A stretch of DNA of 33,460 nt from an uncultured Alphaproteobacteria bacterium. GTDB taxonomy: Bacteria; Pseudomonadota; Alphaproteobacteria; Rs-D84. Where the stretch lies: the NCBI GenBank assembly GCA_944389185.1, contig CALXLL010000003.1, positions 76,754 to 110,213 on the forward strand, read 5' to 3'. The notes beneath the pieces were generated by a model. The model made no database searches and had not been told where the DNA came from. It worked only from the letters and a program-made list of their open reading frames with translations. Made by a program: the position numbers and the translations under genes. Positions 8,339 through 31,798 of this stretch are shown here, piece after piece. Every line of letters starts with the position of its first letter. Position 1 is the first letter of the stretch.

Positions 8339-9367
8339 ATGTTTTATAAATCACTAACAAGCAAATTATTTTTGTTATTCATTATTTCTGTGCCGAATGT
8401 CGCGCAAGCTTGGCAATTTGATTATGATAGATTTAGTTTTAAGCTAAACGGTTATGGAACAATAGGTGTATTGGAACCGAAAGATATAAAACCAGATTTT
8501 GTTGGTGATTGGCGATTGCGGGGTCAGGTTAATTATGCGGCTGCAAGTAATCACGTGTTGGGGTTGGTATATGCAATAGACGCTGCGTCGGTTGATGAAG
8601 ATAAGTATATTCGTGAAGTCTTCGGTTTTTGGGAATCAAGCAATTTTGGTCGTATAGAGTTTGGATTGACAGATTCTGTTGCAAGAAAGTTGGGCGTAGG
8701 TTTACCAGATGTCGGTGGTTTGCGTGTTAATGACAAGCCTTTGTTTTATAAAAAGATCAGGCCGGACGGACCTGTTATATCTGATACTACGCTTACAACG
8801 GGGCGAAGCGCTTTAAGACTTAATATAGTTTCTTTACCGACTAATTTTATGCAATATGGAATATCTTTTGCGGGGCTGACAGATAATTATGATTATGCGA
8901 TTGATGCGGGGCTTAAAATAAGACAACCGGACGGAAAGGTTAAAACTGCGTTTGCTTTTGGCGCATCTTTTATGGACAAGCCAAATGATTATAGAACGGA
9001 TGCTTATACGCCTGTGGTTAATGCTGATTGGCGTGCGCAGGTTTCAGCTGGTATGAACATTCAGTATAACAGTTGGATATGGGGACTGACTGCAAGATTG
9101 ATTTATGATGAAAATCCAATAGGGCCTGTTTCGGATGGTTTGGCTGTTGGGACTGGTATAAGTTACGATTTATTAAAGTATAGCATATCTTTATCTTATA
9201 TTTTTTCTGATACTGGTATTTGGAATAGGGGCGTTAAAGATTATATAGATAACACTATTATTGGTTCATTCAGATATAAATATAGTGAAAACGTAGACGG
9301 ATGGACTTCAATTGGTTTTACAAGCGATACGCCTTTTGTTTCTGCGGGTATCAGAGTTGTTTTCTAG
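8339..9367 (+). CDS. Porin-like outer-membrane beta-barrel protein
   Basis: The 342-aa protein has a signal peptide (cleavage likely after AQA, residue 24). Many short amphipathic beta-strands ending in aromatic residues follow, and the C-terminus ends in Phe (AGIRVVF), the usual outer-membrane barrel signature. FKLNGYGTIGV after the signal and FESSNFGRIEFGLTDS-like text fit the general gram-negative porin fold. Its likely role is solute diffusion across the outer membrane. It starts seven bases after rpoH with a poor ribosome-binding site, so it is probably cotranscribed with the heat-shock sigma gene. A hairpin terminator follows. Substrate specificity cannot be read from the sequence. Confidence 0.8.
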   Translation: MFYKSLTSKLFLLFIISVPNVAQAWQFDYDRFSFKLNGYGTIGVLEPKDIKPDFVGDWRLRGQVNYAAASNHVLGLVYAIDAASVDEDKYIREVFGFWESSNFGRIEFGLTDSVARKLGVGLPDVGGLRVNDKPLFYKKIRPDGPVISDTTLTTGRSALRLNIVSLPTNFMQYGISFAGLTDNYDYAIDAGLKIRQPDGKVKTAFAFGASFMDKPNDYRTDAYTPVVNADWRAQVSAGMNIQYNSWIWGLTARLIYDENPIGPVSDGLAVGTGISYDLLKYSISLSYIFSDTGIWNRGVKDYIDNTIIGSFRYKYSENVDGWTSIGFTSDTPFVSAGIRVVF

Positions 9368-10570: not shown

Positions 10571-11566
10571 TTACATTTGTAAGTCAGATATCAACCCTTG
10601 TATTCTTGACATGCTGTCAATATCATTTAAAGCTGCAGCAATCGTATAAGCAGATTGCAAATCGCTTTGTGCAGATTCTATATTACCAAGGTTTAAATTC
10701 AGTGCAGCGGATTTTTCAAAGTAAGACATTGCGTTACTTGATAAGTATTCGCGTTCTTCGGTTGTTGTCGCACCTTGTATCTGTTCTGATATTATGCGAA
10801 CAGCAGTAGCATAATCGTTAATTGCTTCGTTATAATTACCAACAGCGGTATAAGCTTCTGCTCTTTCAGCATAAACAGAAGGGTTGATAGAACCTTCTTG
10901 TCTGGATAATGAATTGGTGTAATCGGCAATGGCACCTTCCCAGTTCTTTAACCACAAGTTCAATTGACCGCGTTTTGCATATAAATCACGCAAGTTCAAA
11001 ATAAGATTTGGGTTTGTTGTATATGAAGCCAAAGCATTGTTTATATCATTTAAAGCAGCGGTATAATCTTCCAATCGCATATTTAATAAAGCACGGTCAT
11101 AATAAGCGATGGAATTATTAGGTTCTTGTGCAATTGCTGCGTCAAAGTCAGCCAATGCTTTTCTGTAATCGGAAGATTGTAAGTAAGCTTCACCGCGTAA
11201 AATGTAAGTATCAATACTTGCGTTACCTGAATCAATTGCAGTAGTTAAATCTGCAATAGCATCAGATATATTGCCTTCAAGAAGTTTTGCTTTTCCAGAT
11301 TCGTAATAATCATTTGCTTGTAATAAAGCCTCTTCTGTAATTTCTACATTGTTGGTATTTTGTGTTTGTTCAAAAGCGCCATGGCTACGTCCCAATATAT
11401 AAAACGTTGCTGCGATAAAGAATAGAATTATAAACCAATAAACATAAATGGATAAAGACCAAGAATTATTCGGTTGCTTTTTAGATACTTTTATATCTGT
11501 TTTAACCTGCGTCATACGAGGTGATTTTTTCGCACCAGCATTTTTTTTAGAAATATTTTTTTTCAT
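10571..11566 (-). CDS. Membrane-anchored TPR-repeat protein
   Basis: The 331-aa protein has a lysine-rich cytoplasmic N-terminus, one transmembrane helix (about 38-59) and an extracytoplasmic array of roughly six tetratricopeptide repeats. Clear examples are YDRALLNMRLEDYTAALNDI and YAERAEAYTAVGNYNEAI. TPR arrays are protein-interaction scaffolds, and no partner can be named. The gene has a good GGGAG site and begins 28 bases after the rluB-type gene, making it the likely third gene of an rsmE-rluB-TPR operon. This gene is separate from the YfgM-like gene and is not a copy of it. Confidence 0.8.
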   Translation of the reverse strand: MKKNISKKNAGAKKSPRMTQVKTDIKVSKKQPNNSWSLSIYVYWFIILFFIAATFYILGRSHGAFEQTQNTNNVEITEEALLQANDYYESGKAKLLEGNISDAIADLTTAIDSGNASIDTYILRGEAYLQSSDYRKALADFDAAIAQEPNNSIAYYDRALLNMRLEDYTAALNDINNALASYTTNPNLILNLRDLYAKRGQLNLWLKNWEGAIADYTNSLSRQEGSINPSVYAERAEAYTAVGNYNEAINDYATAVRIISEQIQGATTTEEREYLSSNAMSYFEKSAALNLNLGNIESAQSDLQSAYTIAAALNDIDSMSRIQGLISDLQM

Positions 11567-13004: not shown

Positions 13005-15263
13005 ATGGCAGAGAAGTTCAAGATTTTATCAGCAGGCGGTGATTCGAAAGGCTTAAATATATTTAAGTCCAGTGCTTATAAAGAACATCAACGTGGACCT
13101 ATGGCGCAGATTTTTTGGCGCTTGCGCTGGGCAGTTGGTGTGTGGTTGGTATGCGCTTTGGCTTTTGGTGTGGCTTTTTTTATAGAGCACTTATGGCGTT
13201 ATGGTTGGTCACCTGCAACGGCTAAATGGTTATCAATATATCTTCATAACTTTTTATATACCGGTGGTTTGTCAATAGTTGCCGAGATTCCTTATTGGCT
13301 TGGCCGCTGTATAATGAGGCCTGATTTGCCTTGTATCGTTCCTTTGTTACCTATAATTGCTTATAATTTTTTAGTAGATAAAACTTTAATGGGAGAGTTT
13401 AACCCGCACGGTAAAGATAAATATGATTCCGCGTCTTCTAAAAAAGCCTCTGAAGAAGATATAAAGAAAATGCGTCAGAACTTCAAGAATAAAGAAGGTT
13501 TGTTCGGTGGTTTTATTGTTGTTCTTGGATATTTTAAAAGAAAGGGCAAGCAGGTTCCGTTGATGTTTGATGAACCGTTGTCTGCTTTATGTTTAGCGCC
13601 TCCGGGGACTGGTAAAACTGCCGGGGTTGTTATTCCGACAATTTTAGATTGTGATAATGTTTCTATGATTATAAATGACCCGAAACCAGAATTAAAGCAG
13701 GTGACAAGTGGTTATCGCGCAAGTATTGGTTCTGTATTCATTATGAATTGGGCAGGGCAAGACGACCCAGAACATGGTATTTATTACCCTTCTTGGAACC
13801 CTTTGTCGCCCGAGCATGTTCCGTTTAATCAGGAACAAAGAGATTTGTATATAGATTCAATCTGTAAAGTTTTGGTACCTGATAATCCGTCTTCTTCTGC
13901 CGACCCGCACTGGTCATTGTCAGGTCGGGCAGGTTTATCGGGGTTGGTTCATTATATAGTATCAAAAGTAGAAAGGGCCAAAGCAGACGATTATTTTTAT
14001 TCTCGTATTTCTTCTGGTAAGTTTGATGCGGAAGACGCAGCGGTTTTATCGGATTATTATTTATCTATGATGAACGACCCAAATGCTTACGCTGCGCTGG
14101 CTTTATTACAAAAAGGAGAGTTGAATCAGACTAATTATGTTCACGTTGGAACTTGGGCAAATATACCAGACGCTTGGGTTGGAAAAGAAGCTTCACTTCC
14201 TATGATTTTAGATTGGTTAAACGCAAGTCAATTAGACGTAGCTGCAAAGTTAGAGGCTAGACGGAAAGAGGGCGACCAAATGGTAATGATGGCGGACCCT
14301 ATGAAAGAGTTATTCGAAGCCGCGGTTGAAGAGGCAAGACGATATGCTTATTCACATCGTGCAGTTTTAGAATTAACGCAGCTTGCAAACACTCCGGATA
14401 AAGAGCGCGGTTCTATTATATCTACTATGATGGCTGGGCTTGCGATATTCCGTAACGCTGCTGTTCGAAATAGAACAAGTCATTCAGACTTTCATTTTTC
14501 TGATATGCGCGGTTTAAAAGATCCTCGTGACGGTAAGGTAAAGCCTGTTACGGTTTATTTGTCTATAAATATGGTTGATGCCGAGGCTCTAAATCCTATT
14601 ACGGGTATATTTATAGAACTTATGTCCAGTTATTTAATGGCAAATAAACCAGATCAAGACAATAACGGTATAAAGATGGGGCCGTATCCCGTAATATTTA
14701 TGTTGGATGAAATGCCGAAGATGCAAAAGTTGCAAGCAGTTATACAAGGCCCAGATATAGGTCGTGGTTGTAAGGTTTCGTATGTGATTATAGGTCAAGA
14801 TATTCATCAGATTGCAGAAAAATATGGGCGTGACGCTGCCGATACTATTATTTCCACTACGGCGGCAAAAATCGTTATGCGTCAAAATGATTTAGAGACG
14901 GCAAAGCGCTTTTCTGAAATGATGGGCGATAAAATAGAGATAAAAACTGAAAACGATAAAGAAATTAAAAAAAGCTCGCCTTTATATACGCCTATGGATA
15001 TTATGAAATTGCCGGAAGGCAAACATTTAGTTATTTATCAAGGTTTTTATAATCGTCCAATAGAAGCCGAGCAAGCAAGGTATTTCTTAAACAAATCTGA
15101 TGTAGAGAAAAAGCTGTTTGCAAAAACCCAGATGGGCGAAAGCAGTCCTTTACCAGATTTTTTAATACCTTCTCATCATGCAAGAATGGGTTATTCAGGA
15201 AAACCAAAAGTGTATGACCCTAAAACGCACGAAGTAAAAATATTGGAAGTAATAAAGAAATAA
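13005..15263 (+). CDS. VirD4/TraG-family type IV coupling ATPase
   Basis: Coupling proteins are hexameric inner-membrane ATPases that deliver DNA or protein substrates to a type IV secretion channel. The 752-aa protein has N-terminal membrane segments (about 42-62, 78-98, 106-124). It has a Walker A site LAPPGTGKT (197-205) followed by GVVIPTI and NDPKPEL, an interrupting helical region, and a Walker B site FMLDEMPKM (about 566-574). Downstream are GQDIHQIAEKYG and PVIxLDE surroundings typical of VirD4/TraG. It lies alone between rsmE and fabZ, with its own promoter and terminator and no channel, relaxase or VirB genes nearby. Isolated placement recalls the dispersed Rickettsiales rvh system, but membership in that lineage is not shown. 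Confidence 0.92.
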   Translation: MAEKFKILSAGGDSKGLNIFKSSAYKEHQRGPMAQIFWRLRWAVGVWLVCALAFGVAFFIEHLWRYGWSPATAKWLSIYLHNFLYTGGLSIVAEIPYWLGRCIMRPDLPCIVPLLPIIAYNFLVDKTLMGEFNPHGKDKYDSASSKKASEEDIKKMRQNFKNKEGLFGGFIVVLGYFKRKGKQVPLMFDEPLSALCLAPPGTGKTAGVVIPTILDCDNVSMIINDPKPELKQVTSGYRASIGSVFIMNWAGQDDPEHGIYYPSWNPLSPEHVPFNQEQRDLYIDSICKVLVPDNPSSSADPHWSLSGRAGLSGLVHYIVSKVERAKADDYFYSRISSGKFDAEDAAVLSDYYLSMMNDPNAYAALALLQKGELNQTNYVHVGTWANIPDAWVGKEASLPMILDWLNASQLDVAAKLEARRKEGDQMVMMADPMKELFEAAVEEARRYAYSHRAVLELTQLANTPDKERGSIISTMMAGLAIFRNAAVRNRTSHSDFHFSDMRGLKDPRDGKVKPVTVYLSINMVDAEALNPITGIFIELMSSYLMANKPDQDNNGIKMGPYPVIFMLDEMPKMQKLQAVIQGPDIGRGCKVSYVIIGQDIHQIAEKYGRDAADTIISTTAAKIVMRQNDLETAKRFSEMMGDKIEIKTENDKEIKKSSPLYTPMDIMKLPEGKHLVIYQGFYNRPIEAEQARYFLNKSDVEKKLFAKTQMGESSPLPDFLIPSHHARMGYSGKPKVYDPKTHEVKILEVIKK

Positions 15264-18305: not shown

Positions 18306-18764
18306 TTATTCTACTATAAAAGATACTTGGTTAGTTCTTGAAGAAAAGCATTGTGAAGTTATATCTGTTTCAAAGCCGTTAACTTTTATTGCTTTTGCCC
18401 AGTCTGGAACTGCAATGGTAAAATATTCGCATTCTCCTTCGGATAATTCCGTAAGATTTATTGCGAATTCTGCACCGCCGTTTTCTGCTGTAACAGACCA
18501 GTTTGCGCCACCAATCGGAGCGCTATTATTTTTTAATGCGCCTGCCTTAACCAAGTAATCTACGCTGACACCCGTATAGTCGCCACGTAGCTGCAATAAT
18601 AATTTAGTGTTTGATGCAATTTGTTCTATTTCTGAGCTTGCGATTTTTCGTGCTTGATTATTGCGAATTACGTTATAAATGCTGACGGCGCTTACTGTCA
18701 TTGCACCGGCAATTGCAAATACACCCAGCATTTCTATTAAAGACCTACCGTATTCTTGACGCAT
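18306..18764 (-). CDS. PilS-like type IVb major prepilin
   Basis: The 153-aa protein has a short class III leader ending in Gly6, then RSLIEMLGVFAIAGAMTV with Glu at mature position 5. This is the prepilin-peptidase signal and hydrophobic assembly helix. The C-terminal globular domain contains Cys residues (GECEYF and TSQCFSS) that could form the usual pilin D-region disulfide. ATG 18764 is chosen over one ten codons upstream because AAGGAGA precedes it. The ribosome-binding site lies in the 10-base gap after dnaX, and the OmpA lipoprotein gene abuts its end. Its resemblance is to PilS of IncI/R64 thin pili. No pilus assembly genes are nearby. Confidence 0.82.
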   Translation of the reverse strand: MRQEYGRSLIEMLGVFAIAGAMTVSAVSIYNVIRNNQARKIASSEIEQIASNTKLLLQLRGDYTGVSVDYLVKAGALKNNSAPIGGANWSVTAENGGAEFAINLTELSEGECEYFTIAVPDWAKAIKVNGFETDITSQCFSSRTNQVSFIVE

Positions 18765-18774
18765 AAAGATCTCC

Positions 18775-20310
18775 TTATATTTTATTTTGAACATCTATTA
18801 ACTCACCTTCTTCAAATAAAGACATTGCACTTGCAACCATTGGGTCTGCTTCTAATTCTTCTTGTTGTTTTTCAGTTACGGTTTGAGAATGTTCTTTACA
18901 TTCCTGTTGCTTTTCCAGATTCCATTTTTTACCTGTATTTTTTTCTAACCATTCAGAAAGTTTTGTCGAAAAATCAGGGTCGCCTTTCCTATCAAAATAT
19001 TTAATAGTGCCATCTGAAAAGTCTATTACTTCTATATTTGTGCTGAAATAAGAAAATAATAATATTTCTTTAGTTGTTTTTAAAGCTTTTGCCAAATCGT
19101 CAGAATTATTAATAGTTAATTTAGAATCTGTTTTTTGTGCTGGTTGAACGACAGCTGGTTTCTGTTTATCTGCACTTTTTAACATGTCTGGTATAGAAGG
19201 TATATCAGCTATGTGCATTAATCTGACTATCAGCATATCAAAGCATTGTTTTTGATTGCTTGTCGCTTGCATTTCTGCAACAGAAGCAACCATTACCTGC
19301 CATATTCTTGATAAAGTATTCAAAGAAACCCGAGCGTTTATACTTATAATTTTTTCGCGTTGGTCTGCCGTATAAGGACAATTTATAGAGTTTCCTGCAT
19401 GTAAAGAAGGATGCATACGTGTCGCCCAATGAGTCCATTCCATCATATCCGTCAATAACATAGATAAATCTGCACCGTTTGTATAAATCTGGTCGGCGCT
19501 TTCAAGAGCTTTTGCAACGTCGCCCGAAAGTAAGGTTTCCATAAAGTCGACTACTACCCCTCTATCTGCACGTTTAAGCATATCAAGCACGGATTTTTCA
19601 TCTACTTTACCGCCAGTTTGAGCGATTGCTTGGTCAAGTAAAGAAAGTCCGTCACGAACGGAACCGTCCGCAGCACGTGCAATAAGTTCGTTTGCTTGGT
19701 CTGATAATTCTATATTTTCTTGTTTAGCAATCCAAGCAAAATGGTTTTTAAGGGTTTCAACGGGAACGCGAACTAAGTCAAATCTTTGACATCTTGATAA
19801 AATAGTAACAGGGACTTTTCTTATTTCTGTTGTTGCAAGTATAAATATTACGTGTGCCGGTGGCTCTTCCAACGTTTTTAATAAAGCATTAAATGCGCTG
19901 GTAGACAGCATATGAACTTCGTCGATTATATAAACCTTATATCTTCCATTGGTTGGTCTATATTGGGCTGCGTCTAATATATCCCTCATATTATCAACAC
20001 CGGTATGGGAAGCGGCGTCAATTTCCATAACGTCAATATGTTGACCGGCGGCAATAGCGCGACAATTTTCGCAAACACCGCAAGGTTTTGCCGTAGGTCT
20101 GTCAGAAGATAAGCAGTTTAATGCTTTTGCAAGTATTCTTGCAGTGCTGGTTTTACCCGTTCCGCGTATACCTGTAAAAATATATGCGTGGGCGATACGT
20201 GAAGTATTTATCGCCGTAGTTAAAGTTTTAACTAATACGTCTTGACCGATTAAAGATTGAAAATCTTGACTGCGATACTTTCTTGCTAGAACTGTGTAAT
20301 TATTATCCAT
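18775..20310 (-). CDS. dnaX: DNA polymerase III subunit gamma/tau
   Basis: DnaX is the clamp-loader ATPase and, as tau, the replisome organiser. ATG 20310 (511 aa) follows AAAGGAAG and gives the normal start DNNYTVLARKYRSQDF. Walker A is GIRGTGKT (47-54), zinc ligands are Cys66, 77, 80 and 83, Walker B is IIDEVHML (128-135), and the SRC arginine-finger motif is at 172-174. The C-terminal tau region is short and diverged. The usual next genes (ybaB, recR) are replaced by the pilin and OmpA genes. No gamma-forming frameshift site is evident at the domain III border. Confidence 0.95.
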   Translation of the reverse strand: MDNNYTVLARKYRSQDFQSLIGQDVLVKTLTTAINTSRIAHAYIFTGIRGTGKTSTARILAKALNCLSSDRPTAKPCGVCENCRAIAAGQHIDVMEIDAASHTGVDNMRDILDAAQYRPTNGRYKVYIIDEVHMLSTSAFNALLKTLEEPPAHVIFILATTEIRKVPVTILSRCQRFDLVRVPVETLKNHFAWIAKQENIELSDQANELIARAADGSVRDGLSLLDQAIAQTGGKVDEKSVLDMLKRADRGVVVDFMETLLSGDVAKALESADQIYTNGADLSMLLTDMMEWTHWATRMHPSLHAGNSINCPYTADQREKIISINARVSLNTLSRIWQVMVASVAEMQATSNQKQCFDMLIVRLMHIADIPSIPDMLKSADKQKPAVVQPAQKTDSKLTINNSDDLAKALKTTKEILLFSYFSTNIEVIDFSDGTIKYFDRKGDPDFSTKLSEWLEKNTGKKWNLEKQQECKEHSQTVTEKQQEELEADPMVASAMSLFEEGELIDVQNKI

Positions 20311-20811: not shown

Positions 20812-20840
20812 TTGCAATATTTTTTTTCTGTTGCTATTCT
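20812..20840 (+). promoter_or_regulatory. Promoter of the PilV-like operon
   Basis: TTGCAA (20812-20817), a 17-base spacer and TATTCT (20835-20840) with an extended TGC before it. Transcription would start near 20847, just ahead of the TAGGAG ribosome-binding site (20852-20857). Confidence 0.55.
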
Positions 20841-20862
20841 TTCAGTGTGTGTAGGAGTTTTT

Positions 20863-22218
20863 TTGAAAAATCAACGCGGAAACTTTTTATTACAAGCTTT
20901 GTTGGCATTTACTTTGATTTTTGCCTTTATACCTTTTGTTGCGCAGCAATTAGCAGGTCGTGATATTGACGCAAAAATGTATTCTTCTACAAGACAGATA
21001 GAACTTGCCCAGACAGCTGCTAGAATATTTATTCGTGAAAATGCTCAGAGCCTGCCTTATAACACGACGGTCGTGTCTGGAAATGAGTTTGCAGATTTGT
21101 TAGAGTCTTATGGATTGCCGCTGGGGTTTGTTCCAAAAACTGCTTTGGGACAAGATATTTCTTTGGTTATAAAAAAAGAACCTACTTCTGTAACGGCATT
21201 CTTAAATGTTTCCAAAGGGGATTTATCCGAACTTCAATTGGCCGAGCTTAGTCGAAGACTTGGTTTTTATTCTTCATATACGGATAACGGTTTATTGGTT
21301 GGTTTGGCGTTAAACGACGTTTATTCTGATGTTGTGAAAAGAAATGAAACAAATCTTGATAATAGTGCTTTTTTAACGGACTTAGATATGGGGGCTTTTT
21401 CTTTAAGTAATGCAGAAAGCCTCTTGGGAAGAAGGGCAGAGGCCGAAACAAGTCAGTTTAATACTTTGTCTATCACTGGTTTGGAAAACGGCAGAACCGC
21501 TAAAAATAGCATAGATTCAATGTTTTCAGATAAAGCTGTGTTTCAAAATAAGTCTGGTGAAGCCCCTTTGTCGCTAACGCGCGGTTCTTTGTTTGTTGGT
21601 GATATAAGTGCTAAAACCATTTCAAAGTTTGGAGATACAGGTAATTTTTCTTCTAATTATGCGTCTGTTTATGAATTGACCATGACTGCCGGCAGAACCA
21701 GTTTTTATGGTCCATTAGAATGGACTGTTAACGGCAGTTTAATAACAGAAAAAATTAATTTAACAGTAGATAGTTTAGAAATAGAATCTTTTATAAACGC
21801 AAGTGGGGGGCAAGACGTTTATATAGACCCCGATAGTTTAGATTACAGTGTAAGTTCTGGTATTGATGCTGGGACTATATACGCTTCAAATATAACTATG
21901 CGTGACCAGACGTCTGATGCGTTGGCGGAAGGTGAAACAGGTGAAGTTATTCTGGATATAAGACCTGCGGGCACGTCTTTCTTTTCTGATGTAGCTTATT
22001 TAAATATAAGTAATGAAGGTTTTTCTATTCTGAAAGATCCAAAAGATGACGATGCAGAAACACTAAGCTGCCGAGATATTATTTACGATTTAGAAGGTAA
22101 TTATGACAGGAACTCTTTATCGCAATATATAATATGCCAATATGTATTTTGGCAAAGACTGGAAAAACGTATAGATATCAAAAAGTGTTTGTTGGAAGGT
22201 AAAAGTGGTTGCTTATAA
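20863..22218 (+). CDS. PilV-like minor prepilin, first of three
   Basis: The start is TTG 20863, chosen for the TAGGAG site five bases upstream and because it places a typical prepilin leader (KNQRG) before NFLLQALLAFTLIFAFIPFV. This gives 451 aa. The residue at mature position 5 is Gln11 instead of the usual Glu. After the assembly helix come AQTAARIFIREN, a first globular domain, and a shufflon-N-like turn (LTDLDMGAFSLSNA, about residues 170-183). A long region that looks like repeating beta-strands follows, then a Cys-containing C-terminus (LSCRD, IICQY, IKKCLLEG, GCL). R64 PilV proteins are minor pilins with a C-terminal adhesin. The end overlaps the next gene by 14 bases. Confidence 0.75.
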   Translation: MKNQRGNFLLQALLAFTLIFAFIPFVAQQLAGRDIDAKMYSSTRQIELAQTAARIFIRENAQSLPYNTTVVSGNEFADLLESYGLPLGFVPKTALGQDISLVIKKEPTSVTAFLNVSKGDLSELQLAELSRRLGFYSSYTDNGLLVGLALNDVYSDVVKRNETNLDNSAFLTDLDMGAFSLSNAESLLGRRAEAETSQFNTLSITGLENGRTAKNSIDSMFSDKAVFQNKSGEAPLSLTRGSLFVGDISAKTISKFGDTGNFSSNYASVYELTMTAGRTSFYGPLEWTVNGSLITEKINLTVDSLEIESFINASGGQDVYIDPDSLDYSVSSGIDAGTIYASNITMRDQTSDALAEGETGEVILDIRPAGTSFFSDVAYLNISNEGFSILKDPKDDDAETLSCRDIIYDLEGNYDRNSLSQYIICQYVFWQRLEKRIDIKKCLLEGKSGCL

Positions 22219-23413
22219 AAACATTTTTTATAATTTAAAGCAGCAAGCCGGTGCTTCTGTATTAGAAGTCTTACTGGCCATGGGGATTGTCGCATCTGTT
22301 GCGCCGTTTTTGTATACGCAATTGATGGACAGCAGTAATTATATTAGAAATATGTCTATTGCAAAAAATATAATAAATATAAAAGACCCTATGTTTAACT
22401 TTATTCGTATAAATCAAGATTTGTGGCCGGATACGGCTCAGATAAAACTTTCAGAAGACGAACTTGATAGCATTTCAGATTTACCAGTTGCGGCTTTCAT
22501 AGATAAATATATGGTTCAGAGTGCAGTTGTAATAGATACTTATCTTGCGTTTGATTTCGGTGATAGCGATTTTACCGCGGCGCAAATAGCGAATAGCATA
22601 GGTATGGATGCAGCTGTTGTAGGTCAAGATGGTATTGCTTATGGGCAAGATTGGGCTGTGGCCGCACCGGATTTTAAAGAAGGTTTCTTAATTTATAGAA
22701 TAACGCGTGATTTAAGCGGTGAAGATAAGACCAGATACTTACATCGTGGAACGACCGGTGAAGACGAGCTGAATAAAATGTTACGCAATTTAAATATGGG
22801 TAATAATAATATTTATAATATAGGTGGCGTATTTGCTAAATCATTAAAATCATCAAACGGCGCAGCTTTTTTCGTGGAAACAGGAATGTTGTCTGCTGAT
22901 ACAGTTTATTTTTCATCCGGTGCAAATATAGACGGAGAAGCAGTTTATTTCGATAGTGTAAGGGTAACAGATGACGTATCTGGTTTTAGAAATATTTATG
23001 CAAATTCATTAAACGGCAATAAGTATACAACAAAAGGGCGCGTTATAGCAGATAGAGTAAATGTTCTTAATTCGGTAAATGTATCAAATGATTTTACGAT
23101 AAAGTCTGATACGTTAAGAACTGTCAGCGGGTTTGTTGGTGTAAGTGCAAACTCTGTTTATACGCCGTTTTTAACAACAGAAGAAATAATTTTTTATGAC
23201 GATTTTGGTTTAACCGTTTCTGGTGAGTTGCTATATTCTACTGATACGCCGATTAAAATAGGAAGTTGGTATTTTCCTTCCACCAGATTACCGCAATTTT
23301 CAGAATTAAATATAGAACGTGCAAATATTCCAGCTATGCCATCAAAAGATTCTTTTAAATCTTTAATGACTACTGGATGGAAAAACATACCTGCAAAGAC
23401 AAGTCAATTATGA
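22205..23413 (+). CDS. PilV-like minor prepilin, second of three
   Basis: GTG 22205 follows GGAAGG and overlaps the previous gene by 14 bases. The 402-aa protein has prepilin leader ...KQQAG (Gly16) followed by ASVLEVLLAMGIVASVAPF, with Glu21 at mature position 5. It is the best PilV match of the trio around residue 190-205, where LNMGNNNIYNIGGVFAKSL matches the shufflon-N domain pattern (LNMGGxxIxNxxxVxAxxL). The rest alternates short strands of the kind DTVYFSSGANI and EAVYFDSVRVTD, as in trimeric tip adhesins. It likely sits at the pilus tip or as a minor pilin. The C-terminus ends without a clear receptor domain. Confidence 0.78.
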   Translation: MVAYKNIFYNLKQQAGASVLEVLLAMGIVASVAPFLYTQLMDSSNYIRNMSIAKNIINIKDPMFNFIRINQDLWPDTAQIKLSEDELDSISDLPVAAFIDKYMVQSAVVIDTYLAFDFGDSDFTAAQIANSIGMDAAVVGQDGIAYGQDWAVAAPDFKEGFLIYRITRDLSGEDKTRYLHRGTTGEDELNKMLRNLNMGNNNIYNIGGVFAKSLKSSNGAAFFVETGMLSADTVYFSSGANIDGEAVYFDSVRVTDDVSGFRNIYANSLNGNKYTTKGRVIADRVNVLNSVNVSNDFTIKSDTLRTVSGFVGVSANSVYTPFLTTEEIIFYDDFGLTVSGELLYSTDTPIKIGSWYFPSTRLPQFSELNIERANIPAMPSKDSFKSLMTTGWKNIPAKTSQL

Positions 23414-24738
23414 AAAAAGAAAATAATATTTTTATAGAAAAAAACTTTGGCTTTGATAAAGGAAGCATATTAATAGAGCTGTTGTTAAGCGTTGCATTGG
23501 TTGCCGTTATGATGCCTTTTGTATTCAGGTATCAACAAAACTCGGTTCGTCGGGTAGAAAATATTGCTGTTATGCGCCATATGGAAGACACTCAGTCTGC
23601 ATTAGAAAGGTATATACTGGAAAATAGAGATAATTTATTAAATACGGTTGGTAAGAATATAATAAGAATAAATCCTTCGGACTTAGCTGACTATGGTGTT
23701 GCTGCTGATGTTATAGAAAATAAAGATGATAAGTATCAGTTACGTATTTTAAAGTCCAATGATATAAACGGTAAAGCAACTTTACAAGGGGTTATTCTTT
23801 ATAACGACCCAGACATCAGTCCTTTGCGGACAAGAGAAATTGTTTCTATGGCTGGCGGTGATTTAGGTTTTGTTGACGGGGTAAAAGCGTTTGGTTCTTT
23901 CGGGGCATGGCGTGCGAATACGATTGATTTAGGATTAGGTTCGTCTGATGGTATTATAGGTATTACGCCTGTGACGCGTGATATTGACTTATATTTATGG
24001 CGCGCGCCTTCTGATAATGAAGATGACGCAACTATGATGTCTGCTTTAAATCTTGGTGGGCACGATATAAAAAACGCAACTTTTATAGATTCTGAATTTT
24101 TACAACTGGAAGAAACTTTGTTAAGCCCAGTAATAGCTACTAAAGACACGATATTTCAGAACAGAATAACCATAGATGGTGTGTTTGAAAGTAAAAATGC
24201 TACTGTATCAGGAATATTATCTTCTGATTCAAGAAACCTTGAAGTTAACAATATGTTTAGCTTAGAAGATACAGGTAAGTTTTCCAGTTTTGCAACAAAT
24301 GACTTATGGGTTTATGATTTAAGCTTATCAGGTTTATCTATTTATACGGAAGACGATTCTGATGCAGCGATTTTAAAGATAAATAAAATGATAGATATGA
24401 CGAACGGAAGAATTGACGCTTTGCAGGTAAGCGTTGGTTTTACTGGTTCTATTACTCCTAAGCTGGTTGTTAGAAACAGAATAGAAGATTCTATAAACAA
24501 CAGATATTTTTGGGATTTGTATACTAACACAGCTTATTTTAACGATTTGATTTTAGCGGAACTTACAAGAATGGCGCCGTTGGCAGTTTATATGGAAAAC
24601 GATAAAACAAGTGTTTCAAGTCAGGTGTTTGGGGCGGTTTCTGCAAATAAGAATGCAACGGTATCCGATTATTTAAATGCTATAACGGAAATTCAAAGAA
24701 AAGTTACCGAGAAATATCGTCAGTTGAATTTGGAATAA
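23410..24738 (+). CDS. PilV-like minor prepilin, third of three
   Basis: ATG 23410 overlaps the previous stop as ATGA, a translational coupling junction; an upstream in-frame start inside the previous gene is less likely. The 442-aa protein has a longer leader ending in Gly18, then SILIELLLSVALVAVMMPF with Glu23 at mature position 5. A shufflon-N-like turn (LNLGGHDIKNATFIDSEFL) lies around residues 212-230. Many short beta-strand repeats follow, and the end is helical (about 415-442). The overall layout equals its two upstream neighbours, though outside these motifs the sequences are diverged. The three probably form hetero-oligomeric or alternative tips. Confidence 0.78.
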   Translation: MKKENNIFIEKNFGFDKGSILIELLLSVALVAVMMPFVFRYQQNSVRRVENIAVMRHMEDTQSALERYILENRDNLLNTVGKNIIRINPSDLADYGVAADVIENKDDKYQLRILKSNDINGKATLQGVILYNDPDISPLRTREIVSMAGGDLGFVDGVKAFGSFGAWRANTIDLGLGSSDGIIGITPVTRDIDLYLWRAPSDNEDDATMMSALNLGGHDIKNATFIDSEFLQLEETLLSPVIATKDTIFQNRITIDGVFESKNATVSGILSSDSRNLEVNNMFSLEDTGKFSSFATNDLWVYDLSLSGLSIYTEDDSDAAILKINKMIDMTNGRIDALQVSVGFTGSITPKLVVRNRIEDSINNRYFWDLYTNTAYFNDLILAELTRMAPLAVYMENDKTSVSSQVFGAVSANKNATVSDYLNAITEIQRKVTEKYRQLNLE

Positions 24739-26831: not shown

Positions 26832-29800
26832 ATGAGTCTTCTGAAAAAAACAGTAAGTTTAATTGCTATTTTTAGCGCGATGCCGGCTGCGTTGGCTGTA
26901 ACGGCCAGACCAAGTGTTGTAGGGACAGCTTCTTCAAGAATGCCTACTTTAACGGGCTATGTTTCAAGTTCTTCATCAAGCAGCAGCAGTTCTTCTTCAT
27001 TGCTTGCAAATGCAGAATGCATAGAAGCTTATACAGATTGCTTGAAAGGAAGCGATGTTTGTGGTCCAAACTTTGAAGAATGCACTAATAATACACTGTT
27101 TTATGCTAAGAAGCCTTTATGCGCAAGTACCCTGATTCAATGCAGTGCTTCTGGTATAAACAGTTTATTTGGGACCAGTAACCAAACTGCGTTTTCAAAT
27201 AAGAATTCTTCTGGTGAATATATTTATCCAACCGCAGGCAGTGTTTTGGGGCAATTAATTGAAGCCGCCCATATAAACAATCGTTATGACACAAGCGAAT
27301 GTGTCAGAAGATATACAACTTGTTTGAAACGTGACGATGTTTGCGGTTATGATTTTGAGCTTTGCACAAGTAATTCAGAATTCAAAAAACAAAAATTATT
27401 CTGTGAATCTACCTTGGCGCGTTGCCAAGATGAAGGCTTAAAAGAATTGTTCGGGACAACAAATACCGCGGCAAATCCTTCTTCGGATAGTCGTATTGGT
27501 ATTATGATTTCAGAAGGTGCGGCGCTGGCAGCTGTTAACGCTGTATCTACTTGTTATAAAGTTGTTGATCAATGTTTCTTAAACGCTTGTGCTACTAACC
27601 CTTACAGATGTAAAGAAGGAAGCAGCGTAGAAGCGGCAAAAGCTGCTGCGGATTTCAGCGGCGTTGAAACCAATTCTTTGGCAGATGTAACTATTATAGA
27701 CCGTAATAACGTTTCTGGTTTCTTAAGAAACGCATGTTTGGACACTATTGGTGCTAATAAGTTCTGTTATGCCACATTTATCGGTAATGGTAATATGCCG
27801 ACTAATTCACAATTACAAGACGAAGTTATACAGAATGACGTTTATTCCGAAGCTTATGCTGCCAGAATGAATGATTCTATGCGCGTAAAAATTGATGATT
27901 TGGTTGCTCAGTTTGATAAAAAAGCGAAAGAGCAATGTGCAGAAACAATTATTTCTTGCGCAATGCGGACTTGTGGTGAAGGAAGTGGGGCAGCTTGTTA
28001 TGCTTCGGCTTTCAACACGTCTAATACTGTAAAAGGTGTTACAAATCCGGCAACTATGGAAGATATAAAGGCTGGTTGTGAAGGTGTTGTAAATAATGAT
28101 ATGGCTTGTAAATATGCAGGTTCTACATTTAACACAACAACTGGGTTGGTTATGTTTGAAGAATACAGCTTGTTTGACAAGTTGTTTACGGCACCTGACG
28201 ATAAGACTGTATCTAACCCTGACCCTGTTGGTGCAGTGGCTCAATTGAATTCTACATTGTCAACTTCTTATAACCAAGCAGCGCTTGACAGCATGAAAAA
28301 ACAATGTCAAACGATTGCTACGAATTGCGTAAAATCTATGTGTGGTGCAGATTATGTAAATTGCTATCGTAACCGCACTGACGTTTATTCTTCTTTGACA
28401 GATTCTGGTAACAGTAATTTTGATGCAAGTATGAATAAAGTCGGCGGCGTTTTGGATCATACAATTGTATTAGGTTTGTGTATGAACACGGTAAAGTCTT
28501 CACCTGTTTGTGAAGAACACTTCAAGACCGAAGCTGCGCGTGCAAAGGCAGGAAAAGATACTACTTCTTCTTGGGGAAGTGCAACGGACGTTCGTTCGGG
28601 TTGGTTAGACGCTGGCAGCTTTACCGCTTCTGAAATACTTTCAACAGTTCAGGATGTTGATGCAGATGGTAACTTGCTATGCACAACTATGCAGGATAAC
28701 GGTGGTGATACTGGCCGTTGTGATGATGCAAGTGGTAAGTATATTTATCCAAAAATGATTGGCACAGGTGAATATGAAATTCAACAAGCAGAACGTGCCA
28801 TATTTAAGGACTTGGTATACGACTTAGAAATAGAGGCTCAGGCACAATATAATGCAAAATTAACGAAGCAACAAAATATGTGCATGTCCAGTAATTCTGG
28901 CGGTATCATGGGAAGCGATGATATGGGAAGCACGTTTATGTGGGTAAAATTAAGAAATAATAAGGTTCCTAATGATTACTCTGTATCTGGTTTGAAGTCT
29001 ACGCAATTTGTTGCAAGTAATGAATTATATGGTTCGTTCTGTCGCATAAGGGTTACTGTTCAATCTGATGATCAAAAGGTTCAGGCTTTGATAAAAGACA
29101 AACCTTCATGGGCGAACGCATACTTTGCAGCAGGCGACGCGTTTACTTGTGGCAGCTGGATACCATACGAAGATTTACAAGAAATATCACAGCAAGTAGG
29201 TCAAGAGGCACGTGATAGTGCGATAAGCCCGCAGGCAAAGAACTTGCCTTGGTGGATGGCTGCGATTGGCACTGTTGGTGGTGGTATTGGTGGTGCGTAT
29301 CTTGGTGCTGGTATTGCGGATGGAACGGTATTTAGTGGCTTGACCGGCAAGTCCGATAGCAAGGTTTCGGATGGAAGCTCTTTGGAAAAATGTGTAAGCT
29401 TTGCGGAACAGGCGATAAATTATGCAGAATCTGGTAATTATCAGTCTGCTAGAATGCTTGGTAATAGTGCTGTGTCAATGGCAAAAGATGCCGGTTTGAA
29501 GGTTGACAATAGCGTAAGCAACGCTATAACGCAACTTGATGAAAATAAGCATAAAGAAAACATTAATGGTGTATCTAAGCTTGATGTTTATGCTATGGAA
29601 ACGGCAACAACCAACTTTGTAAATAGTATTGATGGTTTGCGTGTTCTCTGCGAAGCTTCTGATGCAGATGCAATTCAAAACGAGCAAGACGAAAAGAACC
29701 GTAAATTAGGTATAGGTCTTGGTTCGGCTTTGACTGGTATCGCTGGTGGTGTATTAGGTTATACCGTCACAAACAGCATACTGCAAGCACAGATGGATTC

Positions 29801-29918
29801 AGCAGAAAAAGCTGCGATGGAAGAATGGATGAATGATATCGGTAAGCATATCCGTTGCTATATCGGTGCAGATGAAGTCGGTCAGTATGGTGACGTAATC
29901 AGCACCAGTATGGAATAA
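26832..29918 (+). CDS. Large secreted cysteine-framework protein (1028 aa)
   Basis: I recognise no family. A signal peptide (cleavage near ALA, residue 22) is followed by a 12-residue serine run (45-56). Two copies of a module with identical spacing follow: C63-C70-C77-C84-C97-C104 and C157-C164-C171-C178-C191-C198, each ending in LFGT. Three copies of a second module come next: C241-C248-C253-C260 with C302-C312, C369-C376-C381-C389 with C416-C426, and C492-C499-C504-C511 with C550-C560. The C-terminus has two glycine-zipper helices (about 808-828 and 959-980) that could insert in a membrane. It begins an apparent secreted-protein cluster and ends at a terminator. Disulfide-rich outer-membrane or conjugation proteins such as TraN are a possible analogy, not an identification. 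Confidence 0.85.
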   Translation: MSLLKKTVSLIAIFSAMPAALAVTARPSVVGTASSRMPTLTGYVSSSSSSSSSSSSLLANAECIEAYTDCLKGSDVCGPNFEECTNNTLFYAKKPLCASTLIQCSASGINSLFGTSNQTAFSNKNSSGEYIYPTAGSVLGQLIEAAHINNRYDTSECVRRYTTCLKRDDVCGYDFELCTSNSEFKKQKLFCESTLARCQDEGLKELFGTTNTAANPSSDSRIGIMISEGAALAAVNAVSTCYKVVDQCFLNACATNPYRCKEGSSVEAAKAAADFSGVETNSLADVTIIDRNNVSGFLRNACLDTIGANKFCYATFIGNGNMPTNSQLQDEVIQNDVYSEAYAARMNDSMRVKIDDLVAQFDKKAKEQCAETIISCAMRTCGEGSGAACYASAFNTSNTVKGVTNPATMEDIKAGCEGVVNNDMACKYAGSTFNTTTGLVMFEEYSLFDKLFTAPDDKTVSNPDPVGAVAQLNSTLSTSYNQAALDSMKKQCQTIATNCVKSMCGADYVNCYRNRTDVYSSLTDSGNSNFDASMNKVGGVLDHTIVLGLCMNTVKSSPVCEEHFKTEAARAKAGKDTTSSWGSATDVRSGWLDAGSFTASEILSTVQDVDADGNLLCTTMQDNGGDTGRCDDASGKYIYPKMIGTGEYEIQQAERAIFKDLVYDLEIEAQAQYNAKLTKQQNMCMSSNSGGIMGSDDMGSTFMWVKLRNNKVPNDYSVSGLKSTQFVASNELYGSFCRIRVTVQSDDQKVQALIKDKPSWANAYFAAGDAFTCGSWIPYEDLQEISQQVGQEARDSAISPQAKNLPWWMAAIGTVGGGIGGAYLGAGIADGTVFSGLTGKSDSKVSDGSSLEKCVSFAEQAINYAESGNYQSARMLGNSAVSMAKDAGLKVDNSVSNAITQLDENKHKENINGVSKLDVYAMETATTNFVNSIDGLRVLCEASDADAIQNEQDEKNRKLGIGLGSALTGIAGGVLGYTVTNSILQAQMDSAEKAAMEEWMNDIGKHIRCYIGADEVGQYGDVISTSME

Positions 29919-29934
29919 TCCATGAATAGTTATA

Positions 29935-29966
29935 AAAAGCGCTCTTTACCGAGCGCTTTTTATTTT
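29935..29966 (+). terminator. Terminator after the 1028-aa protein gene
   Basis: GCGCTC (29939-29944) pairs with GAGCGC (29951-29956), followed by TTTTTATTTT. A near-copy occurs at 32621-32647. Confidence 0.8.
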
Positions 29967-30008
29967 CTCTAAATTATATATTTTTGTCTTTTAAGAATCT
30001 TTTTTTTG

Positions 30009-30017
30009 TGTTAGAAT
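30009..30017 (+). promoter_or_regulatory. Extended -10 promoter of the 587-aa protein gene
   Basis: TGT-TAGAAT (30009-30017) would start transcription near 30024, about 11 bases before ATG 30035. Confidence 0.45.
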
Positions 30018-30034
30018 ACAAATTAAGAGAGAAT

Positions 30035-31798
30035 ATGAAAGCTTTATCAGGATTTTTATTAATTGCTTTGTCTCTGTTGTCTTTTGACGCGGTTGCTGCT
30101 GCGGTTGCAACCACGGCAGGTAATAATTTAACGGCTTATAATCCGTCTGGATACATCAGCAATAATAATTGGAATAATCTGATGAACAGCCGGTCTTATA
30201 TGACATCGGCAAACGCGCCTACGGCAGATTTCGGAAATTGTAATGCTGTTATTTTAAGATGCGCGCAACCTAAATGTGCGGGTGGCGGTTGCACAAGTAT
30301 GGATTTGGCACGAACGATAGTTTCTGGTTGCGTTCAATCTAATGAAAGCTGTAAAGAATACGGTGATGATTTAATAGAATATATTTCCGCGCAATTGGTG
30401 GCAGATTCTAATGCAAAAGCCAATCAAGCGGCACTGGAAGCACAAACGGCAGCAGCGCAAGCAGCTCAGCAACAAAGTGCTCAACAGATACAAGCAATGC
30501 AGACGCAGATGCAACAGATGCAAGCACAGATGCAACAACAAAATGCAGAAGCTAATGCTCAATTACAGGCTGCTTTGCAACAGCAACAAGAAATAACGGC
30601 TCAGGCAATTGCGGATATGGCGGCTCAATCTGCAAGTGCGACAAGTTCTAATTCTGCCGTCACGGTAACGCCGGAAGTTCAGCAAGTTGCTGTGGAGTCT
30701 GGTGTGTCGGCAGATGTTTTGGCTAGACAACAGATATCGGGTCAAGTTTTATCAAGCTTGGAAAATGCCGAAGTTGCGTTAAAAGAATTAAAAGCCGTTT
30801 TAACCGATGTTTATGATTATGCCGGTTGCGATAGTTCGGGAAATAATTGTTCCGGTCCAAAGCGCGTAAAAATGTTTAAGCAAAAAGCTATGAACTTTTT
30901 TGAACCTTATAATGCGGTGCTGGACGAGCTTTACGACGCTCTGATTCTTGCACAATCTGTCGGCGTTGATATAACAGATATTTATATGATGCTGAACGGC
31001 AGTTGCAATGCTTGGGCGCAATATTTATGCGGGCCCGGTCAAGTAATGCACTATACGCAGACAAATTGTGTTAACGGTGTATCTATCCCGGTAAGCAACG
31101 CAGGTGAAACAGGTGCAGTTATAGGTGGGTTTAGTTGTAAAGTGGGTCAAGTTGTTCCTATGGCTGACGGCGGTTGTCAATTGGTTAAAATGTTAACTAA
31201 TAATGCAGACGTTCAAAAAAGCTGGTTGTATCCAGATGAGGGTTCTGACGGTTCTTCGCAGATACGTGTAGGCTGTGTATCAGAGGCTTTGGATAACTCG
31301 GTTTTATTCAGCAGTCGTAAAAAACAGGCTTCTATAGATATAGAAACTTTGCAAAGAATAATAGAGCAAGATGCCCCAAGCAGCTTTGGTAACGCGATAT
31401 TCGGAAGCGGTCAAACTTCTCCAAAGCCAGATGGCATAAAGTTTTGTGCTGTAAGCGAAGAAAGTTATGCAGATTTACAGAAATTGGTTTCTTTAAAACA
31501 ATTACCAGAATCTGTATGTGTTTCCGATAATGACTTGAATAATTATATCAGAGATAATGTAGCGGTAGGCATAGTTATTTCTACTAATAATGAAAGTGTT
31601 GAAAACGCAAAGGCTGTGTGTTTGGCAAAAAGGAACGAAGAAAGTTTTGGTAGTATGGCCCAATGTTTATGTGAGCAGGCTATGATTATAGATTATCGGG
31701 TCAGCTGGAATGGGAATAGTTGCGTTTGTGAAGATATTTGGAACGAGGGAAAAACATACAGTTTTAATCAAGCTACGTTAAGGTGTGAAGAGCAATAA
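30035..31798 (+). CDS. Secreted cysteine-rich protein with coiled coil (587 aa)
   Basis: No family recognised. ATG 30035 is chosen because it starts a clean signal peptide (KALSGFLLIALSLLSFDAVA) next to AAGAGAGA; an earlier in-frame start only adds a promoter-coded tail. Near the mature N-terminus is a framework C69-C76-C81-C86-C99-C106, sharing C-x6-C-x4-C with the preceding 1028-aa protein. Residues 125-200 are rich in Gln, Ala and Met (MQTQMQQMQAQMQQQ) and form a likely coiled coil. The C-terminal half has further Cys pairs (CNAWAQYLC, GFSCKVG) and closing CLCEQ and CVCED motifs. The next gene starts directly at its stop codon (TAAATG). Confidence 0.82.
   Translation: MKALSGFLLIALSLLSFDAVAAAVATTAGNNLTAYNPSGYISNNNWNNLMNSRSYMTSANAPTADFGNCNAVILRCAQPKCAGGGCTSMDLARTIVSGCVQSNESCKEYGDDLIEYISAQLVADSNAKANQAALEAQTAAAQAAQQQSAQQIQAMQTQMQQMQAQMQQQNAEANAQLQAALQQQQEITAQAIADMAAQSASATSSNSAVTVTPEVQQVAVESGVSADVLARQQISGQVLSSLENAEVALKELKAVLTDVYDYAGCDSSGNNCSGPKRVKMFKQKAMNFFEPYNAVLDELYDALILAQSVGVDITDIYMMLNGSCNAWAQYLCGPGQVMHYTQTNCVNGVSIPVSNAGETGAVIGGFSCKVGQVVPMADGGCQLVKMLTNNADVQKSWLYPDEGSDGSSQIRVGCVSEALDNSVLFSSRKKQASIDIETLQRIIEQDAPSSFGNAIFGSGQTSPKPDGIKFCAVSEESYADLQKLVSLKQLPESVCVSDNDLNNYIRDNVAVGIVISTNNESVENAKAVCLAKRNEESFGSMAQCLCEQAMIIDYRVSWNGNSCVCEDIWNEGKTYSFNQATLRCEEQ

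Follow-up and report, generated by a model that had tools for sequence, protein, structure and literature searches.

A conserved, exported array of predicted six-cysteine helical hairpins in the alphaproteobacterial order Rs-D84

The DNA analysed here, in the following called the window, is a stretch of 33,460 nt on contig CALXLL010000003.1 (assembly GCA_944389185.1) of an uncultured alphaproteobacterium of order Rs-D84. Its forward strand carries at 26832–29918 a gene whose ORF translation is an exported protein of 1028 aa with 38 cysteines, to which all features named in this paragraph belong unless stated otherwise. An N-terminal signal peptide with an AxA-type end, judged by eye from the sequence, occupies residues 1–22 (26832–26897), which are also the most hydrophobic part of the protein (KD 1.89). 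It is followed by a low-complexity linker (residues 23–54, 26898–26993; defined from the alignment and a pLDDT <50), in which a conserved TARPSV...RMPTMT precedes a Ser run. Five six-cysteine modules come next: A1 (C63–C104, 27018–27143), A2 (C157–C198, 27300–27425), B1 (C241–C312, 27552–27767), B2 (C369–C426, 27936–28109) and B3 (C492–C560, 28305–28511). The rest of the chain comprises a region of a long helix plus beta structure in the AF2 model (residues 642–790, 28755–29201) with invariant C684, C737 and C773, a first glycine-zipper segment (residues 805–835, 29244–29336), a hypervariable four-helix domain (residues 848–955, 29373–29696), a second glycine-zipper segment (residues 957–982, 29700–29777), and a conserved C-terminal domain (residues 985–1028, 29784–29915; mean pairwise identity 0.51), whose C1009 is found in 79/79 sequences covering that position. 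Stretches resembling residues 642–790 also occur in separate proteins of about 290–330 aa in the genus. Just past the gene, a consensus scan alone marks a terminator-like hairpin of 13 pairs on the same strand (29932–29963).

The two A modules, with cysteines at 63-70-77-84-97-104 and 157-164-171-178-191-198, share the exact spacing C-x6-C-x6-C-x6-C-x12-C-x6-C and are each followed by LFGT, as the preliminary description of the protein had reported; its three further modules were likewise recovered with every spacing exact, namely C241-6-C-4-C-6-C-41-C-9-C312 (B1), C369-6-C-4-C-7-C-26-C-9-C426 (B2) and C492-6-C-4-C-6-C-38-C-9-C560 (B3). These frameworks are real and not a product of chance. 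Not one of 20,000 shuffled versions of the protein contained a single copy of the A-type six-cysteine pattern, none had any six-cysteine spacing vector twice, and C-x6-C was observed 13 times against a shuffle mean of 1.3. Searched as DNA through the whole genome, the A pattern was found four times (two copies in the 1028-aa protein and two in further exported Cys-rich proteins) versus 0 for the reversed-pattern control. The gene was retrieved from 80 named loci or contigs, several of them labelled Candidatus Enterousia, and orthologues were present in 35/35 searched genomes of the genus. In an alignment of 81 sequences, with relatives 42–65% identical to the 1028-aa protein, all 30 module cysteines are invariant and the modules rank among the best-conserved regions (pairwise identity 0.50–0.71). 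The cysteine count from C63 onward is even in 71/81 orthologues, and the hypervariable domain holds an even number of cysteines (0, 2, 4, 6, 8 or 10) in 70/81; this parity, which includes the hypervariable domain, is a sign of disulfide bonding in an oxidising compartment.

The A and B modules had been described as two types. Their spacings do differ as stated, and an AF2 model built from the 81-sequence alignment nevertheless predicts helix-loop-helix units for both, with pLDDT of about 80–94 over most of the modules. In A1, a helix at residues 55–71 carries C63 and C70, a loop carries C77 and C84, and a second helix at 87–102 carries C97, with C104 just past its end; A2 has the same arrangement. 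B1 is modelled with helices 221–255 and 291–307/310–316 and B2 with helices 348–384 and 406–422/424–436, the B modules having longer inserts than A between C4 and C5. A 643-aa protein encoded elsewhere in the genome bears a unit C-6-C-4-C-6-C-12-C-6-C, intermediate between the A and B spacings. Both kinds thus look like a single six-cysteine design, a helix with C1 and C2, a loop with C3 and C4 and a helix with C5 and C6, and the A/B difference is better read as a variable C4–C5 segment within it than as a separation into distinct kinds.

Common descent of the modules was supported to different degrees. The A1–A2 alignment scored 158, compared with 35 for a control in which the cysteines were held fixed. 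HHalign profile links reached 99.5% for A1–A2, 98.1% for A1–M2, 95.7% for M2–M4 and 90.7% for A1–M4, M2 and M4 being modules of paralogues; B3 matched M4 at 83.7%, M2 at 57.5% and A2 at 45.6%. The first four links, and more weakly B3–M4, exceeded controls in which the cysteines were kept and the remaining residues permuted. Homology of A1, A2 and the paralogue modules is therefore well supported by their sequences and that of B3 to the A type moderately so, while B1 and B2, which gave no HHalign profile link to other modules beyond the framework, appear tied to them by that framework and by predicted secondary structure alone.

To assign bonding partners, we used an alignment of 106 paralogues in eight subfamilies. 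In module M2, C2 and C5 are jointly absent from 44/44 members of four subfamilies and both kept in the other 62/62; the same 44 paralogues jointly lack C3 and C4 of module M3, both of which the other 62 retain. In M4, subfamily F895 has lost C3 together with C4, and two proteins from another taxonomic family have lost C2 together with C5. No half-pair loss was seen among the cleanly aligned modules of the 106 paralogues; subfamilies F812 and F815 have lost C2 from M4, where C5 cannot be aligned with certainty. On the tree, the M2/M3 change falls on one fully supported branch and there are four changes in total, each of which removes one nested pair (C2 and C5, or C3 and C4). Co-loss was observed in the paralogue modules, and the module cysteines of the 1028-aa protein itself never vary. 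Within the latter, the position sums of the two outer pairs, C1+C6 and C2+C5, agree exactly in A1 and A2 and are 3 apart in B1–B3, which fits the requirement of an antiparallel hairpin. Co-loss and register together imply nested bonds C1–C6, C2–C5 and C3–C4, C1–C6 following by exclusion once the two inner pairs are fixed, and the modules would accordingly be closed by disulfides within each hairpin. AF2 secondary structure, register and pairwise co-loss thus agree with the helical-hairpin pairing suggested at the outset for the outer cysteines. In the A modules, the accompanying picture of helix-spaced cysteines holds for C1, C2 and C5 and fails for C3 and C4, which AF2 places in a loop, so that each unit would have three nested bonds rather than two.

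Invariant cysteines alone do not fix their partners, and chlamydial envelope proteins are cross-linked between chains (PMC6752827), so another topology, such as C1–C5/C2–C6 or bonds between modules or between copies of the protein, was weighed. We regard it as unlikely: every cleanly aligned co-loss removes either C2 and C5 or C3 and C4, and the crossed pairing C1–C5/C2–C6 would be 14 to 17 residues out of antiparallel register. Binding of metal, haem or Fe-S clusters in place of disulfides would be another use for the cysteines of such a Cys-rich protein, and the top Foldseek match of the full model, itself insignificant (E 0.7), is to 3u8v, a small protein that binds metal. The 1028-aa protein, however, contains no CxxC or CxxCH and matches no metal-site family in Pfam or NCBIfam; it has a signal peptide, the genome encodes a DsbA homologue, and the cysteines disappear pairwise and keep even parity, which makes this use very improbable.

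The nested hairpin preferred here matches no described family. The 1028-aa protein had no match in Pfam at E up to 1 and none in NCBIfam or PHROGs; its paralogues gave nothing above the cut-off in Pfam and NCBIfam, with no relevant Pfam family for ten of them. Against PDB folds, residues 53–322 yielded 0 Foldseek matches at E <= 0.001 and a best VIA Z of 2.7 (61 chains), and neither CX6C hairpin repeats nor Cys-rich proteins of reduced genomes led, in the literature searched, to an account of the family. The data support the view that the family was previously unnamed, in line with the earlier suggestion of an undescribed array. Exported bacterial repeat proteins built of disulfide-linked helical hairpins are represented by Helicobacter Hcp with its Sel1-like repeats; the present protein has no Sel1 match in Pfam (E up to 1), and its units carry six differently spaced cysteines where those repeats carry two. 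The closest likeness in design is to the twin CX9C (CHCH) proteins, such as Cox17 and the CHCHD4 substrates, which consist of an antiparallel helix pair joined by two nested inter-helix disulfides, an arrangement that the helices, register and co-loss predict here, and which are oxidised after export from the cytosol, as is proposed for the hairpin units. The first helix of the hairpin units, in contrast, always has C-x6-C, with C-x9-C confined to C5–C6 of the B modules; a third, loop bond would be present, and five units are strung together in one exported bacterial protein of 1028 aa. The lack of CX9C in the first helix and of any Pfam match bears out the initial caution against claiming CHCH homology, and spacing and sequence tests exclude membership. 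The mitochondrial substrate NDUFB10, with CX6C-X29-CX11C (PMC12114033), shares a likeness of spacing only.

The preliminary description dealt with one protein; in wider searches the module proved not to be confined to it. The next gene (29984–31798) contains a further six-cysteine module, C-6-C-4-C-4-C-12-C-6-C (30239–30352, forward strand), whose cysteines are found in 23/23 near-complete sequences including that of the window, one of them with a spacing shorter by one residue. At least 12 exported module proteins are encoded in the genome, comprising the 1028-aa protein, the product of the next gene and ten on contigs 1, 4, 5 and 7; these 12 total about 9,650 aa, or about 3.6% of the assembly of this 0.8 Mb genome. 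By profile search, the family is present in 129/142 genomes of order Rs-D84 (Candidatus Enterousia and relatives), usually with 10–20 module matches per genome within the window's own taxonomic family. Two other families of the order had no match with the profile and weak matches in a single-sequence search. Among 385 alphaproteobacterial genomes from 276 genera, five matched, all of order Rs-D84, and no match fell in another order; judged from these searches, the family appears to be found only in Rs-D84.

The last residues of several paralogues follow one motif, C-[ET]-[DE]-I-x-[MF] (CEDIQM, CTDIQF, CEDINM, CEEIKM), which is possibly a sorting or assembly signal; these paralogues end at 10987 and 14035 of L145 and at 8929 and 11471 of L147, and one is on L189. 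The genome also encodes exported Cys-rich proteins of other designs on the minus strand: one of 2232 aa with 155 cysteines (L224 223–6921), one of 766 aa with 61 cysteines (L221 15617–17917), and one with a 508-aa stretch of EGF-like cysteine repeats (L145 18300–19826).

In the C-terminal half of the 1028-aa protein, the core of the first glycine-zipper segment is free of charge in 79/81 sequences (median maximal KD 1.21) and that of the second in 76/79 (1.52); the first is unstructured in the AF2 model. Their moderate hydrophobicity leaves membrane insertion and sidedness unsure. Between these conserved segments, with the conserved C-terminus beyond, lies the hypervariable domain (about residues 845–955), which is confidently modelled, has a mean pairwise identity of 0.11 and ranges from 89 to 256 aa in length. 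Given that this domain is apparently disulfide-bonded, any membrane crossed by the segments would have to be the outer one. The full model gave Foldseek and VIA matches for the four-helix domain only (residues 842–953; talin, FAT and designed bundles), and their Z of up to 11.8 was discounted because that range is common for helical bundles; a sequence profile search of the PDB returned nothing but C-terminal helical noise. Weak C-terminal profile matches to the alpha-pore-forming toxin components YaxA/XaxA (E 0.014–0.056) raise the idea that this half is pore-forming or toxin-like, with the hairpins as its stalk. We consider that highly improbable: those matches cover the coiled stretch that varies most (identity 0.11), in which chance similarity between helices is frequent; designed helical bundles match in the same profile search; and the structural matches of the region are generic four-helix bundles.

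In 67–70 of 80 loci, the order of the genes upstream is kept; these comprise three prepilin-like genes, a zinc-ribbon gene, a gene for a small exported protein and rluD. The prepilin-like genes lie in a row at 20812–24738 of the window; their large products (468, 402 and 453 aa) have prepilin-like N-termini and match no family clearly, and a fourth, small pilin-like gene lies at 18306–18794 on the minus strand. A VirD4/TraG coupling protein is encoded at 13005–15263 of the window, and a VirB11-like ATPase (T2SSE match) and VirB4- and VirB3-like genes, the latter two recognised by eye alone, are scattered over contigs elsewhere (L218 16656–19371 and L216 18164–19123, both on the minus strand); VirB10 (PF03743) was not found in the genome. 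VirD4 and these genes are possibly a dispersed type IV secretion system. The hairpin protein was considered as a component of such a system and ranked low.

The neighbourhood bears on where the array is placed. The same nested-disulfide hairpins might form a soluble scaffold, or one on the inner-membrane side, in the periplasm instead of a surface layer, for example as an aid to pilin-like or type IV secretion machinery encoded nearby, and this is a possibility of some weight, although the less probable placement. The prepilin-like genes, zinc-ribbon gene and rluD kept directly upstream speak for it, as do the PilB-like ATPase, VirB11-like ATPase and VirD4 encoded in the genome and the just moderate hydrophobicity of the glycine-zipper segments. 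The terminator-like hairpin just past the gene and the presence of rluD in the cluster, however, weaken an operon reading, the paralogues are encoded at other sites, distant from pilin-like and secretion genes, and the hypervariable domain suggests exposure.

We favour outer-membrane placement, and the following course of events is proposed. The 1028-aa protein, a supported case of an exported disulfide-rich repeat array, would be exported by Sec, and a DsbA-like oxidase would probably form the module bonds after export; a candidate with CPYC and N-terminal membrane segments is encoded at L147 16921–17745. Each of the five hairpins would be held by nested C1–C6, C2–C5 and C3–C4 bonds, giving a stiff, protease-resistant rod or scaffold. 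Anchoring or assembly at the outer membrane would probably depend on the two glycine-zipper segments, with the intervening hypervariable helical domain exposed, and together with its many paralogues the protein may build a disulfide-stabilised envelope or cell-contact layer in these probably partner-dependent bacteria. The hairpin-array structure is well supported; a function in envelope strength or cell contact is suggested by the features above, and we give the reading as a whole about an even chance. Chlamydia, also of reduced genome, offers an analogous setting with many Cys-rich envelope proteins (OmcA, OmcB, MOMP) that need Dsb oxidation (PMC6752827). The present protein has no OmcB/OmcA family match in Pfam or NCBIfam, and its bonds would lie within modules and not between chains as in the chlamydial network; a further point of difference is three peptidoglycan transpeptidase hits in the genome.

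The order Rs-D84 is described as genome-reduced, fermentative and probably an obligate symbiont or parasite, with respiratory chains reported absent and with hypothetical membrane proteins that might take part in transport or in contact with other cells (PMC12306168). A Pfam search of the genome found neither DsbB nor VKOR; together with the reported lack of respiratory chains, this makes the re-oxidation of DsbA, and with it the oxidation of hundreds of cysteines by a fermentative cell, a puzzle. A bolder and rather doubtful extension is that Rs-D84 has an envelope architecture of its own, in which multi-gene hairpin arrays (about 4% of 0.8 Mb), with a hypervariable domain between membrane segments, would attach to partner cells or draw metabolites from them and be oxidised without DsbB or a respiratory chain. 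Apart from that extension, the hairpins would be a bacterial counterpart of the CHCH hairpins of mitochondria, with no relation to them in sequence. The uncultured order Rs-D84 occurs widely in animal guts and probably depends on partners; a leading candidate for its contact machinery is this expanded, conserved and exported family, retained while the genome shrank strongly, which provides a concrete, testable gene set.
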